Of a stretch of DNA of 33,209 bases, positions 15,165 to 33,209 are shown piece by piece. The stretch is from Gemmatimonadaceae bacterium (GTDB lineage: Bacteria > Gemmatimonadota > Gemmatimonadetes > Gemmatimonadales > Gemmatimonadaceae): assembly GCA_025930755.1 (NCBI GenBank), contig JAICOJ010000027.1, positions 1-33,209 on the forward strand, written 5' to 3'. Below the pieces are notes generated by a model, which worked only from the letters and a program-made list of their open reading frames with translations, had not been told where the DNA came from and did not search any database. Each line of letters starts with the position of its first letter. The first letter of the stretch is position 1. The position numbers and the translations under genes were made by a program.

Positions 15165-15376
15165 GGTGCCTTCGCTCCGGGCATCGAGCCAGTGGGCCAC
15201 GCACAGCCTGAACTGCGAGGAACGGCAGCTGGGTTCGACGCATGACCGCCAATCCTCGACGAGAGATCATCGTCGACCAGAAGTGGGCAATTGTTCGCGC
15301 GTCTTACCGTGGCAGGACGCGGGCCGCGGCGCGACGCCGCCCCGTACGCAACGCCGTGGACAGAGGCGCCTGACGC

Positions 15377-18366: not shown

Positions 18367-18483
18367 TTTTTTTACCGCAGAGGACGCGGAGGACGCGGAG
18401 GAACTGCGACGGCGAAAGCCTTTGAAAAAAGCCCTTGCCGTTGAAGTTCCTCCGCGTCCTCCGCGTCCTCTGCGGTAAAAAAA
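18367..18483. repeat. 117-bp inverted repeat with 39-bp perfect arms (ACCGCAGAGGACGCGG type)
   Basis: Left arm 18367-18405 and right arm 18445-18483 are exact complements over 39 bp. Each starts with a 7-base T (or A) run, then ACCGCAGAGG followed by the 9-bp unit GACGCGGAG in tandem. The 39-bp centre is partly self-complementary (ACGGC ... GCCGT). It lies between two convergent genes. With T runs at both outer ends it would make a bidirectional intrinsic terminator, but the arms are far longer than needed. Translated, the arm gives the FTAEDAEDAEE string often mis-annotated as protein. Confidence 0.9.
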
Positions 18484-20626: not shown

Positions 20627-21063
20627 CACACCCACGACGCAAGGCCCAGCCAGCCGCCTCCCGGTGGCTTCGAGGGGGCCGGGAAGCCTGGTCCGAGCTC
20701 GAGCTCGCGCGGCTCATTGCTCAGGGCATCCCGACGTCGCTCCTTGGCGAGGTCATGGAGCAGGGTATCCTCAGCCGCGACGAGGTCACTCGCCTCATCC
20801 TCCCTCGGCGCACGCTCGCGCACCGGAAGCGCCGGGGCGAGCACCTCTCGCCCGACGAGTCCGACCGGCTCGCGCGCGTACTCCACCTCCACCGGATCGC
20901 GCTCGAGACCTTCGACGGGGAGACCGAGACGGTGAGCAGGTGGCTTCGCACACCGAACCGCGCTCTCTCCGGCGAGATTCCGCTCGATCTGATCGTGACG
21001 AGCACCGGCGCGCGACTCGTCGAGGATGCGCTGCTGCGGCTTGCGCATGGAGTCTTTACCTAG
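20623..21063 (+). CDS. Xre/MbcA/ParS-type antitoxin of a RES-Xre module
   Basis: A 146-residue antitoxin. The N-terminal part (about 20-75) is the degenerate Xre-like DNA-binding region (LIAQGIPTSLLGEVMEQGIL, LILPRRTLAHRKRRGEHL). The C-terminal part (about 76-146) is the toxin-binding DUF2384/MbcA-ParS domain (LSPDESDRLARVLHL, ALETFDGETETVSRWLRTPN, PLDLIVTSTGARLVEDALLR). Order and length fit the family. It neutralises the RES toxin encoded next and probably represses the shared promoter through the palindrome over its own start codon. Unlike the usual close or overlapping arrangement, toxin and antitoxin are separated by 124 bp filled by an inverted repeat. Confidence 0.92.
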   Translation: MAHPRRKAQPAASRWLRGGREAWSELELARLIAQGIPTSLLGEVMEQGILSRDEVTRLILPRRTLAHRKRRGEHLSPDESDRLARVLHLHRIALETFDGETETVSRWLRTPNRALSGEIPLDLIVTSTGARLVEDALLRLAHGVFT

Positions 21064-21187
21064 GGGTCGGGAGTCAGGGGTCAGGGATCAGGGGGTCGGA
21101 GAAGAGGTTCCAGGAGCTTCGCGAGCCGATCTCCTCGAACCTTCTCCCTGACACCCCCTGATCCCTGACCCCTGACCCCCGGCTCCC
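21063..21187. repeat. 125-nt long hairpin repeat between antitoxin and toxin
   Basis: Core arms 21073-21096 and 21153-21176 are exact complements (24 bp) built of GGTCAGG-type heptamers. Pairing continues outward with wobble and a mismatch (GGGGTCGGGA with the strand ending CCCCGGCTCCC) and inward (GGAGAAG.GGTTC with GAACCTTCTCC, then AGGAG with CTCCT). The element starts in the antitoxin stop codon and ends at the base before the toxin ATG. It leaves the toxin with no Shine-Dalgarno sequence: the 15 bases before the ATG are mostly C. It would fold strongly in mRNA and probably limits toxin synthesis. Confidence 0.88.
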
Positions 21188-25008: not shown

Positions 25009-25140
25009 GTGGAACGAGGAACAAGCGGAACGAGGAAATAAACGGAACGAGGAACGAGGAAGCGGTGCGTCGAGGTCCTGCGCGCTGGACCGTGTTAGCC
25101 ACTTCCTCGTTCCTCGTTCCTTTCTTCCTCGTTCCACTCA
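25006..25140. repeat. 135-bp inverted repeat of GGAACGA heptamers joining two stop codons
   Basis: Outer arms TGAGTGGAACGAGGAA (25006-25021) and its complement (25125-25140) are perfect over 16 bp; inner arms of 19 bp (25044-25062 with 25102-25120) are also perfect. The unit GGAACGA or GGAACGAGGAA recurs several times in each arm. The outermost TGA on each strand is the stop codon of the adjacent gene (barrel protein on plus, kinase on minus), so the element exactly fills the convergent gap. Confidence 0.9.
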
Positions 25141-28679: not shown

Positions 28680-29192
28680 TTAGAGGTACCTCGCCGTCGC
28701 CATGGCGATCACGGCAACCAGCAGCAGCGATGCGACGATCCGCATCCCCTTTCCCATCTTCGCCTGTAACGCAGCCATCTCCGCCGCTTGTTCGGCCGAC
28801 GGTGGGCGACCCGTCGCCTGAATCGCCTCGCCCAGCTTTCCAAGACGCACGCCGGAGCGACTCACGAACGCGCCACCGATGATGGCGGCGACGATCGTCG
28901 CCACTCCACCGATACCGAAGATCATCGCGGAGTTCGTTCGCACCCAGGCTCCGTTCATCGCCATCGCGCGACCATACAGGATGAGTCCCGACAGCATCGT
29001 CAGGCCGGCGGCGGCGTTCATGAACACGGGCAGGCGCCGCCGCTGGATCTGCTGCATGAAGGGCGCGCCGCCGGGCCCGGCGTCGCGCACCGAGGGAAAG
29101 ATGAACCCAACCATGAGGAAGACGGCGCCGGCCCAGAAGACGCCGCTGACGATGTGGAGGAGCCGCAGCACCAGCGTAATGGTCTGATCCAT
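28680..29192 (-). CDS. Four-helix integral membrane protein, DUF2269/CopD-like
   Basis: A 170-residue membrane protein with helices at about 6-30, 55-75, 89-110 and 149-168. The first helix carries LRLLHIVSGVFWAGAVFLM, reminiscent of DUF2269 and CopD-like membrane proteins, where the His may bind metal or haem; the family assignment is tentative. A soluble helical segment (about 115-148) precedes the last helix. ATG 29192 is chosen because the protein starts directly at the first helix; the frame is open upstream. Converges on the AlkZ-like gene across a heptamer array. Function unknown. Confidence 0.8.
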   Translation of the reverse strand: MDQTITLVLRLLHIVSGVFWAGAVFLMVGFIFPSVRDAGPGGAPFMQQIQRRRLPVFMNAAAGLTMLSGLILYGRAMAMNGAWVRTNSAMIFGIGGVATIVAAIIGGAFVSRSGVRLGKLGEAIQATGRPPSAEQAAEMAALQAKMGKGMRIVASLLLVAVIAMATARYL

Positions 29193-29301
29193 GTCGAGCA
29201 CACGGGAAAGGGGTGGGATCACGCCCGCCTTACATCGTGGAGAATGGGGCGACCGGCGCCCCGGTTCCCGCAATTCGGACGCCGCCCAACCTGTTTCCAG
29301 A

Positions 29302-29320
29302 GAGACGGTTCGGCCGTCTC
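29302..29320 (+). promoter_or_regulatory. 7-bp hairpin with UUCG-type loop in small-ORF leader
   Basis: GAGACGG (29302-29308), loop TTCGG, CCGTCTC (29314-29320): a perfect 7-bp stem with a stable tetraloop-like turn. It lies 46 bp before the GTG of the small ORF. It may be a leader structure or, on transcription from the left, a terminator; no T tract follows. Confidence 0.45.
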
Positions 29321-29365
29321 ATTACAGGAGGGCCGTTAGGATAGACCACGTTCAAGAGAGGAATT

Positions 29366-29572
29366 GTGCATACGCGCACAGTGACCGATGAGGATGGCCG
29401 TGTTTGGTCGTTGAGCCCGGAGACCCGCCGCACGCCCGCCGCGGGCCGTGACGTCGTACTCGTGGCCACGACGCCGTCAGTGCCGAACCCGGTGAGACTG
29501 ACGGTCGGCTGGCAGTGGCTAAAAATGGCGGAGAAGGGGCTGGCGCGGATGATCGCTGCGGCCCTGCGGTAG
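29366..29572 (+). CDS. Small hypothetical protein (68 aa)
   Basis: A 68-residue frame starting at GTG 29366 with AGAGAGG six to seven bases upstream. The sequence (MHTRTVTDEDGRVWSLSPET ... VRLTVGWQWLKMAEKGLARM) has a balanced composition with a plausible beta-rich start and a C-terminal helix, unlike the Arg/Ser-rich shadow frames of this GC-rich DNA. I do not recognise a family. It has its own leader hairpin and is followed after 45 bp by a 60-bp perfect palindrome that could terminate it. Real gene is more likely than not, but unproven. Confidence 0.55.
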   Translation: MHTRTVTDEDGRVWSLSPETRRTPAAGRDVVLVATTPSVPNPVRLTVGWQWLKMAEKGLARMIAAALR

Positions 29573-29617
29573 CGGAATTCCGGCGGTGGCGACACCGACA
29601 GCCTGAACCCCCGAACT

Positions 29618-29677
29618 ACACGAAAGACTCGAGGGCCACGAATACCGCGGTATTCGTGGCCCTCGAGTCTTTCGTGT
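29618..29677. repeat. 60-bp perfect palindrome without spacer
   Basis: Every base from 29618 to 29647 pairs with 29648 to 29677: ACACGAAAGACTCGAGG... on each strand, centred on CCGCGG. There is no loop. It lies 45 bp after the small ORF and about 280 bp before the MFS gene. It can form a cruciform in DNA and a very stable RNA hairpin. It may be a terminator or a member of the window's group of inverted-repeat spacers, although it lacks the short tandem units. Confidence 0.93.
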
Positions 29678-29958
29678 GATCCGGTGGTTCCAAGGTGCCC
29701 ATGGCGCGGCGGACCGCTGAGGTCGGCGCGCACATTCTCGTGTGACGGGAGACGTCGGGAGCCGGGTCTCCTCGCAACCGGCGCTGTCAGGGATCGCTGA
29801 CAAATGTTTGCCCGGTACCTGGAACCAACGATACCTCCAGGTGCTTGACCAGCATGCGGCCGCCGATGAACGCGAGGGCCCTGTCGCCGTCTCTCCGCGT
29901 TCGTGCACAGGGCGGCTCTTCGACCTCGCCGGATCAGTAGCCTCAATCACGACGTCCG
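29678..29958. other. Leader/promoter region of the MFS gene
   Basis: No convincing gene; a 74-codon frame here has random composition. Two weak stems are present: TGTCAG-ggatcg-CTGACA (29785-29802) and ACCTGG...CCAGGT (29817-29842). One of them could be an operator for a regulator of the exporter. There is no clear ribosome site before ATG 29959. Confidence 0.4.
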
Positions 29959-31557
29959 ATGTCTGAAGTCACCAGAGCAACGCGCCGCGAATGGGTTGGA
30001 CTCGCGGTCATCGCGCTCCCCTGCCTGTTGTACTCGATGGACCTGACGGTCCTGTATCTTGCCGTCCCGCATCTCACCGCGGATCTCAAGCCCACGAGTG
30101 CGCAGCTCCTGTGGATCAGCGACATCTACGGATTCCTGATCGCCGGCTCCCTCATCACGATGGGAACGTTAGGCGACCGGATCGGGCGCCGGCGGCTCCT
30201 GCTCATCGGGGCGACGGCGTTCGGCGTCGCGTCAGTGCTTGCCGCGTTCTCCAATAGCGCCGAGATGCTGATCGCGACACGCGCCCTGCTGGGCGTGGCG
30301 GGCGCGACGCTGGCCCCGTCGACGCTGTCGCTCATCCGCAACATGTTCCTCGACCCGCAGCAGCGGACCGTCGCCATCGGCATTTGGGCGACGAGCTTCT
30401 CGGTCGGGGGCGCGCTCGGTCCGCTCCTGGGCGGCGTGATGCTCGAGCATTTCTGGTGGGGGTCGGTCTTTCTGTTAGGCGTGCCCGTGATGGCGCTGTT
30501 GCTCGTGGTCGGCCCAAAGCTGCTTCCCGAGTTCCGCGACCCGAACGCCGGGCGCCTCGACCTCACGAGCGCGGCCATGTCGCTGACGGCGGTGTTGTCG
30601 ATCATCTACGGGCTCAAGCGTATCGCCCAGGACGGGGTCGGAGTCGTGCCGGCGATGTTCATCGTTACGGGAATCGCGATCGGCGTGCTGTTCGTTGGCC
30701 GTCAGCGCCGTCTCGCCGATCCGTTCATCGACCTCCGACTGTTTCGCGCTCCCGCATTCAGCGCGGCGCTGGCGACGAACACGCTCGGCATCTTCGTGGC
30801 CTTCGGCACCTTCCTGTTCACGTCGCAGTACCTGCAGCTGGTGCTGGGCTTCTCTCCGCTCGTCGCCGGACTGTGGACGCTGCCGTCCTCGCTCGGCTTC
30901 GTCATCGGCTCGATGGCCGCACCGCTCCTCGTACGCCGCGCTCGACCGGCGTACGTGATGGCCGGCGGACTGACGCTCGTCGCGGCGGGACTCATGCTCA
31001 TGACGCAGGTCGAGGGTGAGCGTGCCCTCACCCTTCTCGTGACGGGCACGGTGGTGCTGGCGCTGGGCCTGTCCCCGGTCGTCACGCTGGGAACCGATCT
31101 GATCGTCGGAAGCGCGCCGCCCGAACGCGCCGGAGCGGCCTCATCCCTCTCGGAGACGGGCGCCGAGCTGGGTGGAGCGTTAGGCATCGCGGTGCTCGGC
31201 AGCATTGGCACCGCCGTGTATCGCTCGATGATGGCCGAGGCGGTGCCACGGGGCGTGCCGGCCGAGGCCGCCGAGGCCGCGCGCGGCACGCTGGGGGGCG
31301 CGCTGGCGACGGCGGAGCAGCTTCCGCCGGCGATCGGCGCCGAGCTCGTGAGCGCGGCGCGTGACGCCTTCTCGGAGGGGCTGGAGCTCACCGCCTCGGT
31401 CTCGGCGATGGTCGCGATCGCGACGGCAGCGATGGCCGCGATCGTATTGCGACGTGCGCGCGCCGGCGGTGCGCACGTCGAGTCGCCTGTCAGCCACGAC
31501 GACGTGGCCCCTGGAGTCGAGACGATCTTCGCCGGCGCGGCGCAGGAGAAGCGATGA
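29959..31557 (+). CDS. MFS drug/cation exporter, DHA2 (14-helix) family
   Basis: A 532-residue proton-driven exporter of the QacA/SmvA-like DHA2 group. Evidence: 14 hydrophobic segments; Asp28 in the first helix (LLYSMDLTVLYLAVPHL), typical of cation-exporting members; motif A GTLGDRIGRRRLL between helices two and three; motif C SVGGALGPLLGGVML in helix five. It ends in a soluble tail (after about 500). All three TTA leucine codons I can find in the gene are inside GTTAGGC. The stop overlaps the ATG of the DinB-family gene (ATGA), implying co-translation. The likely substrates are lipophilic cations or antiseptics (family knowledge), not proven. Confidence 0.92.
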   Translation: MSEVTRATRREWVGLAVIALPCLLYSMDLTVLYLAVPHLTADLKPTSAQLLWISDIYGFLIAGSLITMGTLGDRIGRRRLLLIGATAFGVASVLAAFSNSAEMLIATRALLGVAGATLAPSTLSLIRNMFLDPQQRTVAIGIWATSFSVGGALGPLLGGVMLEHFWWGSVFLLGVPVMALLLVVGPKLLPEFRDPNAGRLDLTSAAMSLTAVLSIIYGLKRIAQDGVGVVPAMFIVTGIAIGVLFVGRQRRLADPFIDLRLFRAPAFSAALATNTLGIFVAFGTFLFTSQYLQLVLGFSPLVAGLWTLPSSLGFVIGSMAAPLLVRRARPAYVMAGGLTLVAAGLMLMTQVEGERALTLLVTGTVVLALGLSPVVTLGTDLIVGSAPPERAGAASSLSETGAELGGALGIAVLGSIGTAVYRSMMAEAVPRGVPAEAAEAARGTLGGALATAEQLPPAIGAELVSAARDAFSEGLELTASVSAMVAIATAAMAAIVLRRARAGGAHVESPVSHDDVAPGVETIFAGAAQEKR

Positions 31558-32096
31558 GCACGACGATCGACGCAGCCACCGAGCGGCCCGGGCCCGACGA
31601 GTACGACGCGTACTATCACAAGTACATCTCGCTCGTGCCCGATGGGGACATCACCGTCACCCTGGCGCGGGCATTTCCGCAGACCCGCGAGATCCTGGAA
31701 ACCGTGCCCCTCGGCCGCGAGGGCTGGGCGTACGAGGCCGGGAAGTGGAATTTCCGGGAGGTGGTGGGCCATCTCGCCGACATGGAACGCGTCTTCGCCG
31801 GGCGCGCGCTGTGGATCGCGCGCGACCCGGAGACGGCGCTGCCCTCGTTCGAGCAGAACGTCTGGGCGCCGAACAGCAACGCGCGTCACCGCCCCCTTCG
31901 AGAGCTGCTCTACGAGTGGGCGTCGGTACGAGCGGCAAGCCTAACGCTCGTACAGAGCTTCGATCCCGAGACGATGGTGCGCGTTGGAACCGCGTCCGGT
32001 CTGCGCTTCAGCGTGCGCAGTCTCGTATGGATGATCGCGGGCCATGAGCTCCATCATCGCGAGCTGCTGCGCGAGCGGTACGGGCTGACGGAATAG
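31554..32096 (+). CDS. DinB-family (DinB_2) putative metal-dependent protein
   Basis: A 180-residue four-helix-bundle protein of the DinB/YfiT superfamily. The expected metal-binding triad is present: His73 (EVVGHLADMERV), His164 and His168 (MIAGHELHHRE). Additional family marks: KWNFREVVGHLADME and RPLRELLYEWASVRAA. The start overlaps the MFS stop by four bases, with AGGAG five bases upstream. Members act in thiol-dependent (mycothiol or bacillithiol) detoxification or have unknown roles. Coupling to an exporter suggests a joint detoxification unit (inference). A heptamer inverted repeat begins immediately after the stop. Confidence 0.92.
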   Translation: MSTTIDAATERPGPDEYDAYYHKYISLVPDGDITVTLARAFPQTREILETVPLGREGWAYEAGKWNFREVVGHLADMERVFAGRALWIARDPETALPSFEQNVWAPNSNARHRPLRELLYEWASVRAASLTLVQSFDPETMVRVGTASGLRFSVRSLVWMIAGHELHHRELLRERYGLTE

Positions 32097-32197
32097 GACT
32101 GCGAACTGCGAACTGCGGACTGCGAACTGCGAACTGCGAGCTGACGGGTGAAAAGTAGGAGGCTGTTTTCGCAGTTCGCAGTTCGCAGTTCGCAGTC
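32097..32197. repeat. 101-bp inverted repeat of ACTGCGA heptamers
   Basis: The left arm (32097-32139) has six tandem ACTGCGA units with one variant (GGACTGCG). The right arm (32170-32197) has four units in the opposite orientation (CGCAGTT). The 28-bp right arm pairs with the first 28 bp of the left arm with one mismatch, or in a shifted register with the second half. It starts at the base after the DinB stop and ends four bases before the metK stop, filling the convergent gap. Heptamer shared with the array at 28634-28675. Confidence 0.92.
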
Positions 32198-32201
32198 TCA
32201 T

Positions 32202-33209
32202 TCATGCCTCCCACGGCAAGTTGGCTCTCCCGAAATGCCCGTAGTTCGTCGTCTCGCGGTAGATCGGCCGCCGCAGGTCGAGACGCTCGATGATCGCGTT
32301 CGGCCGGAAGTCGAACTTGTCGGCCACGAAGCGCTCGGCGCGCAGCGGGTTGCCCGTTCCGAACGTCTCGACACTCACGGACACGGGGCGCGGACGGCCG
32401 ATCGCGTAGGCGACCTGCACCTCGCACCGGTGCGCGAGGCCCTCGCGCACGACCTGGCGCGCGACGTAGCGGCCGAAGTAGGCACCGCTCCGATCCACCT
32501 TCGACGGATCCTTCCCGCTGAACGCGCCGCCACCGTGGCGCGCAGCGCCACCATACGTGTCGACGATGATCTTGCGACCCGTCACGCCACAGTCCGTTGA
32601 CGGGCCGCCTTCGACGAAGCTTCCGGTGGGATTGACCAGGATCGCGAGGTTCTCGTGATGCCACTCGCCGAGGACCTCGGGGATGACCGAGGCGGAGAGG
32701 TACTCGCGAATCGCGACCTGTGTCACGTCGGGCGCGTGCTGCGCCGACACGAGCACCGTCCGCACCTCGGCGGGGAAGCCTGACGAGTCGTAGGCCACCG
32801 AGACCTGGGTCTTCGCATCGGGTCGGAGCCACGGCGCCTTGCCCGACCTCCTGTCCGCCGCCAGCCGCGCGGCGAGCGCGTGGGCGAGCAGAATCGGGAG
32901 CGGCATCAGCGCGTCGGTCTCATCCGTCGCATAGCCGAACATGAGCCCCTGATCGCCGGCGCCGCCGATGTCGACGCCCTGCTTGATCTCCTGAGCCTGG
33001 TGGGAGAGGAGCTGCGTCACGCGGACGCCATTCGCGTGAAACGCCTCGGCCGGATCGGTGTAGCCGATCGCGCGAATCGCGGTGCGGGCGATCTGCTCGT
33101 GATCGACGCGGGCGCTCGATGTGATTTCGCCAGCCAGAACGACGTTTCCCGCCTTGCAGAGGACTTCGCACGCGACGCGCGCGGAGGCGTCCTGCTCGAG
33201 ATGCGCATC
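32202..33209 (-). CDS. metK: S-adenosylmethionine synthetase, 5' end outside window
   Basis: Makes S-adenosylmethionine from ATP and methionine. The frame runs through the right edge with no stop, so roughly 28 N-terminal codons are missing. The visible N-terminus reads DAHLEQDASARVACEVLCKA, GEITSSARVD, RTAIRAIGYTDP, aligned with E. coli MetK. The family signatures follow: GAGDQGLMFGYATDE (methionine/ATP binding), GGGAFSGKDPSKVDRSGAY (the P-loop-like GGGAFSGKD), and NPTGSFVEGGPSTDCGVTGRK. The C-terminus ends HFGRANLPWEA, about a dozen residues shorter than E. coli. A GTG near 33020 is internal. Convergent with the DinB-family gene. Confidence 0.97.
   Translation of the reverse strand, partial: DAHLEQDASARVACEVLCKAGNVVLAGEITSSARVDHEQIARTAIRAIGYTDPAEAFHANGVRVTQLLSHQAQEIKQGVDIGGAGDQGLMFGYATDETDALMPLPILLAHALAARLAADRRSGKAPWLRPDAKTQVSVAYDSSGFPAEVRTVLVSAQHAPDVTQVAIREYLSASVIPEVLGEWHHENLAILVNPTGSFVEGGPSTDCGVTGRKIIVDTYGGAARHGGGAFSGKDPSKVDRSGAYFGRYVARQVVREGLAHRCEVQVAYAIGRPRPVSVSVETFGTGNPLRAERFVADKFDFRPNAIIERLDLRRPIYRETTNYGHFGRANLPWEA

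Follow-up and report, generated by a model that had tools for sequence, protein, structure and literature searches.

Families of repeated stem-loops in the intergenic regions of bacteria consist of folding sequences that lie mostly between genes, according to the available part of their description (PMC2267715), and the REP elements that go with RAYT transposases are extragenic palindromes carrying a GT(A/G)G head, as given in the accessible portion of PMC2817692. Rho-independent (intrinsic) terminators form a stable hairpin just past the stop codon, and an excerpted report (PMC13155455) places the peak of perfect inverted repeats in bacteria at +50 to +80 past stop codons. Template switching can create stems as well as perfect them, and for the template-switch (quasipalindrome-correcting) mutations perfect inner arms and diverged outer arms are predicted, both points being taken from a partial text of PMC8794818.

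Here we describe a palindrome found in a stretch of 33,209 nucleotides (the window), which is the entire contig C160 of a Gemmatimonadaceae bacterium whose draft genome (the own genome) comprises 275 contigs and 4,267,153 bases. The reading that we prefer, with a probability of just under one half (about 0.48), is that of a 3'-end hairpin, either a terminator or an mRNA stabiliser, that was probably derived from an element and had its arms equalised by fold-back template switching. Like the members of the repeated stem-loop families, the palindrome folds and is intergenic, and its genus has such repeats; unlike them, it is a single, diverged and perfected copy. It resembles the REP elements in being an extragenic palindrome, but the GT(A/G)G head is absent directly 5' of it on either strand and it is not repeated. 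Membership in the REP/RAYT system was rejected on the basis of the single copy, the lack of the head and a Y1 transposase that is flanked by the ends of another sequence. The perfect inner and diverged outer arms agree with the prediction for template-switch mutations.

A perfect palindrome and its surroundings

The initial annotation reported a 60-bp perfect palindrome without spacer, and direct reading of the sequence bore this out: the 60 bases are identical to their own reverse complement, with 30 pairs and a spacer of 0 (Table 1). Perfect stems of this kind, with loops of 0-8, are expected by chance at 8e-10 per random genome of the same size and composition. A sample of 783,722 bases, made up of the window and 60 other stretches, covers 18% of the 4,267,153 bases of the own genome; within it, the palindrome is the longest perfect stem with loops of up to 8, followed by stems of 26, 19 and 18 bp. 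The palindrome is real and not a chance product.

Table 1. Positions of the palindrome, its neighbouring features and the hairpins behind homologues of the 68-aa gene (positions in the window unless given relative to a stop codon)
Feature	Position	Strand	Remarks
Conserved 68-aa gene	29366..29572	+	no Pfam or NCBIfam match at E 0.01
Left flank outside the palindrome	29588..29617	+	resembles the element-family terminus GGCCACGGACAGCCGAAC..
Complete inverted repeat	29605..29690	.	39/43 pairs; outer 13 pairs 9/13 matching
Perfect palindrome, 60 bp	29618..29677	.	two 30-nt arms without spacer; centre between 29647/29648
CCGCGG centre	29645..29650	.	inner CGCG self-complementary; fold-back copying could be primed there
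MFS efflux transporter gene, downstream	29959..31557	+	Pfam MFS_1 above cut-off
G001 hairpin	+32-61 past stop		12-bp stem, loop 6; T's at the end and beyond it
G148 hairpin	+31-55 past stop		11-bp stem, loop 3, then TTTTTG
G129 hairpin	+24-54 past stop		15-bp stem, loop 1; T's at the end and beyond it

The initial argument that perfect palindromes of this length are unstable in many bacteria looks overstated, since strong effects of palindromes in E. coli are seen at lengths well over 100 bp. Perfect stems longer than that of the palindrome were met elsewhere, one of 38 bp with a loop of 7 in the relative G017 (L198:17596-17678) and one of 36 bp with a loop of 2 at a Streptomyces locus (L040:4551-4624). 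Cleavage of lagging-strand palindromes by SbcCD has been detected only with artificial palindromes exceeding natural lengths, and any closely spaced inverted repeat might enter a different rearrangement pathway if its hairpin has a suitable size, as stated in the available part of PMC3315005; the available part of PMC7999016 holds nothing on length limits of bacterial palindromes.

A search for other copies of the arm, as the initial annotation suggested, was carried out with its 27-nt core. When 179 family genomes were searched with up to 3 mismatches allowed, the core was found in the own genome, where it occurs only as the two arms, and was absent from the 178 others. Neither was an exact match to the 21-mer core of the palindrome found in viral contigs, and a plasmid search left the palindrome unmatched, with two partial matches to flanking bases only (E 0.04 and 0.4). 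None of 4227 Rfam families matched the window at the gathering score; the matches below cut-off (DUF3800-IV and microRNA precursors, best E 0.013) are probably due to the shape of the hairpin. The arm shows a weak periodicity at lag 9 (12/21), the same share being reached at some lag by 2.6% of shuffles.

The inverted ends of a mobile element, when abutting after its excision, produce a palindrome without spacer, and the sequence could represent such joined ends or else an active miniature transposable element. The genus contains many inverted-repeat elements of unassigned mobility, and in the own genome a gene for a Y1-type transposase is enclosed by inverted ends of 33 nt. Against this explanation, which we consider very improbable, the arm has no further copy in the own genome, the ends of the Y1 unit are unlike the palindrome (1965/2000 and 1964/2000 shuffles were as good), and the first 20 bases of these ends were found at three sites, all on contig C64 (≤3 mismatches). 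The transposase gene (L220:1383-2179, on C64) is the one place in the own genome that matches a Y1-type (IS200-like) transposase; its score of 73.5 against 80 bits falls just under the NCBIfam REP-associated cut-off. Its inverted ends match at 91%; the third copy of their first 20 bases is located about 2 kb away, and these bases occur nowhere else in the own genome with up to 3 mismatches.

G001, the only genome of the same genus returned for comparison (the sister genome), carries on one contig the genes for an AlkZ-like protein, the 68-aa protein, two MFS fragments, DinB and S-adenosylmethionine synthetase, in the same order as the window. The gene at 28680-29273 is displaced there: instead of separating the AlkZ-like and 68-aa genes, it is found on the far side of the AlkZ-like gene at a distance of about 3.4 kb. 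Two other genes (ArsR-like and AHSA1-like by eye reading) lie between the hairpin of the sister genome and its MFS fragments. Since the nearest homologous sequence on either side of the palindrome keeps the same order, the join at the palindrome is probably real and not a false one. The assembly artefact raised by the initial annotation is disfavoured on the same ground, whether one thinks of a fold-back or of an inverted duplication and whether it arose during assembly or from a chimeric read. The draft of 275 contigs and the other long inverted repeats at contig ends (L166, L155, L112 and L160) would be in line with such an artefact, but the symmetry of the palindrome fades over 13 imperfect pairs with no abrupt end, and a second near-perfect palindrome without spacer exists in the sample (L166, 44/45 pairs), itself at a contig end. 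Altogether, we give an artefact a very small probability.

Homology between the 3' flank of the palindrome and that in the sister genome was rejected, the alignment being no better than those of shuffled sequences (222/500 as good), and the short matches of the palindrome to the region behind the 68-aa gene of the sister genome were at chance level (E 0.12 or worse). For the MFS gene, the closest match in a pattern-seeded search was a Chloroflexi metagenome bin (74% identity), followed by Bosea and actinobacteria, and the nearest NCBIfam models are of the QepA, LfrA and SmvA types, all below cut-off. Two short MFS fragments are all that remains of this gene at the equivalent locus of the sister genome, considering that locus only.

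The location of a perfect dyad upstream from an MFS efflux gene might also suggest that a dimeric regulator of the pump gene binds there. This is most unlikely, however, because the start codon is 281 bp away from the palindrome and no sigma-70-like promoter was found nearby in a scan of 29200-30000 for promoters of the sigma-70 type. In addition, none of six scanned proteins of the window matches a regulator family, the 68-aa protein matches nothing, and 60 bp far exceeds the usual length of a dimer site.

Hairpins at the 3' ends of genes

The palindrome starts at +46 bp from the stop codon of the 68-aa gene and is centred at about +75. This gene was matched in nine of 178 family genomes, the own one included, with 93% identity in the sister genome. 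Behind three of its eight other homologues, in G001, G148 and G129, a perfect hairpin with T's is located at a like distance (Table 1), while no comparable hairpin with T's was found within 130 bp behind the other five. Among the functions offered in the initial annotation, a strong terminator is the best supported by this position behind a conserved gene and by the hairpins of the three homologues; for a dimer site or a recombination site, inspection of the position and of the neighbouring genes gave no support.

As in the Rho-independent terminators, a stable hairpin is present shortly after the stop codon: the predicted RNA fold of 29595-29700 reaches -72.3 kcal/mol (z -10.9), a value equalled by none of 200 shuffles, and the DNA fold of the palindrome region gives z -11.4. 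The palindrome differs from these terminators in being longer, perfect and without spacer, and in having its T's (TCTTTCGTGT) within the 3' arm of the stem, with no T-tract behind the full stem. A simple terminator scan, which counts at most 20 pairs so that TTTCGTGT serves as the tail, rated it terminator-like on both strands. If transcribed, the palindrome would fold into a stem of 29 pairs, by which the mRNA of the 68-aa gene would be terminated or protected, and such a stem would block read-through into the efflux-pump gene behind; being symmetric, the hairpin could work on both strands.

The own genome offers many hairpins for comparison. A total of 26 perfect stems of at least 12 bp with loops of up to 8 were detected in the sample, 17 of which are intergenic and centred no more than 150 bp beyond a called gene end, as against 202 of 3902 random positions. 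Apart from the palindrome, the intergenic stems measure 12-19 bp, plus one of 26 bp. In several hairpins at gene ends the perfect stem contains A's on its 5' side and T's on its 3' side, in the same manner as in the palindrome. When long inverted repeats were defined by arms of at least 22 bases, an identity of at least 85% with mismatches allowed and a spacer of up to 150, the sample yielded 86, of which 62 are found no farther than 100 bp behind a called gene end (373/3440 for random placements). Enrichment was also observed within 100 bp before called starts (30/86; random 344/3440), and gene 3' ends are therefore not the sole location of these repeats. The gene caller used for these counts was a crude one (ORFs of at least 210 nt with third-position GC bias), and the palindrome is scored as a miss among both the 26 and the 86 because the 68-aa gene, being shorter than 210 nt, is skipped. 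Only two of the 86 have no spacer, the palindrome and the near-perfect L166 repeat at a contig end.

The palindrome is a real gene-end hairpin of unusual perfection, a feature of a known type in an uncommon form. It is possible, though in our estimate doubtful, that it is simply the intrinsic terminator of the 68-aa gene, lengthened by point mutation and selection without the participation of any element or template switch. The T-hairpins behind the gene in the three other genomes and the shared A/T pattern of the arms are in agreement with this possibility, as are the weak or negative profile searches for the element family described below. On the other hand, 30 perfect pairs without loop are an outlier relative to the other stems of the sample, no T-tract is located behind the stem, and the left flank resembles the element family.

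Many of the long inverted repeats in the own genome are built from short tandem units. Periodicity of the arms of 0.6 or more, in many cases with units of 7 or 9 bases, was shown by 55 of 81 repeats outside the window and by two of five inside. Arms made of such tandem units (CTGCGAA, GGGTCAG-like, GCGGAGGAC and GGAACGA) recur in the own genome, mostly past gene ends, and unit-built inverted repeats in the window are located at 18367-18483, 21063-21186, 25041-25123 and 32091-32203. Four unit patterns from a 283-kb sample of the own genome gave no match in a 151-kb sample of the sister genome. A literature search with the exact unit strings returned nothing relevant, and further searches gave neighbouring topics only, such as the TAACTGA heptamer repeats in the available part of PMC4679880.

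An inverted-repeat element family of the genus

The sister genome contains a family of inverted-repeat elements of about 180-210 bp that start with GGCCACGGACAGCCGAAC; examples with GGCCACGGAC ends are located at L134:1593-1776 and L133:17558-17756. With one element as DNA query, at least 93 matches were obtained in the sister genome at E≤0.01, in both orientations and among the best 40 of 86 candidates, and none in the own genome at the same threshold. A sequence-only model was then constructed from 37 arms of the sister genome (33 of 39 listed plus four others, including a more distant subtype). Among the best 150 candidates per genome, this model matched at least 140 times in the sister genome and at least twice in the own genome (on C267 and C110) at E≤0.01, and gave no match in 29 other relatives. 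Concerning the location of these elements, six of 18 checked in the sister genome (30 fetched) are situated no more than 100 bp beyond a called gene end, as against 216 of 1800 random placements. In the window, a 24-bp match to an end of the family (10.7 bits, E 0.016) was noticed at 15195-15218, where an ORF on the minus strand begins.

All comparisons between the palindrome and this family were chosen after the resemblance had been noticed by eye. The left flank alone was matched to the consensus of the 37 arms as well by only 17 of 20000 random 30-mers; when the left flank was taken together with the arm, the alignment ran from the first bases of the consensus on and was equalled by one of 20000 random 62-mers from the own genome and by two of 5000 shuffles. 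The right arm with its flank was no better than random sequences (1894/20000) or shuffles (1623/5000). In an earlier comparison with four strings, two of which were taken from the own-genome C267 element, none of 4000 random 60-mers and one of 81 other inverted-repeat starts was as good, and in another, four of 60 shuffles were as good on the best hit and one of 60 on the mean of the top ten.

Profile searches gave less. The palindrome was not listed among the own-genome matches of the 37-arm model in a whole-genome cmsearch at E≤0.01, and it was missed by nhmmer with 10 arms of the sister genome. With filters off over the 33 kb, cmsearch placed both arms in the same register with weak scores (7.0 bits and E 0.25 for the left arm, 3.9 bits and E 2.2 for the right). 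The left arm was outscored by two other places in the window and the right arm by six. A search with a 9-mer consensus (CACGAAGGN units, 3 mismatches) detected both arms and two other places in the own genome, at 30793 in the window and on C267; this consensus was derived from the palindrome arm and thus provides no independent test. The C267 member was first met through this pattern and was refound independently by the model from the sister genome.

The elements consist of two arms with a loop of tens of bases in between, the spacers of six GGCCACGGAC-ended members in the sister-genome sample being 72-134 bases, whereas the palindrome has a spacer of 0. The missing spacer fits an ancestry in the family only if the loop was lost. 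Taking the flank and profile comparisons together, we lean slightly toward descent of the palindrome from this genus-specific family, an origin that is statistically supported but not proven.

Proposed equalisation of the arms

The four mismatches of the 43-pair inverted repeat all fall within its outer 13 pairs, the matches being 30/30 in the inner and 9/13 in the outer part. If mismatches were spread evenly, such a placement would have a probability of 0.006, a value to be read with the boundary having been picked after inspection. The recent origin proposed in the initial annotation is plausible in the light of this distribution.

One event could explain both the perfect centre and the missing loop. 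The starting material would be an inverted-repeat element from between the genes of the genus. A nascent strand that ends in the self-complementary CGCG at the tip of the arm could fold back upon itself, and the left arm would then be copied into the right arm. Where the left arm of the own-genome member on C267 meets the loop, it reads GAATACCGCG; the member on C110 lacks GAATACCGCG. Fold-back at the CGCG of GAATACCGCG would yield GAATACCGCGGTATTC, which is the centre seen in the palindrome. Such a template switch would remove the old loop, and the resulting 60 perfect bases would be flanked by outer arms that are older and have diverged. From the pattern of matches in the arms, we infer a template-switch origin of the palindrome.

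A more specific and decidedly tentative version of this history combines these steps. The palindrome would be a relic of an element family that has expanded to at least 140 arms in one species and has almost vanished from its sister, where at least two were detected, and it would have been made spacerless by a single fold-back at CGCG and then employed as the terminator of the preceding gene. Were the palindrome merely a long terminator, it would be ordinary, yet unusually perfect for its own genome. If the history as a relic is true, dispersed folding repeats, template-switch mutation and terminator turnover, three subjects that are mostly treated separately, would be linked at one site, and the sister species would display an alternative state of the same site.
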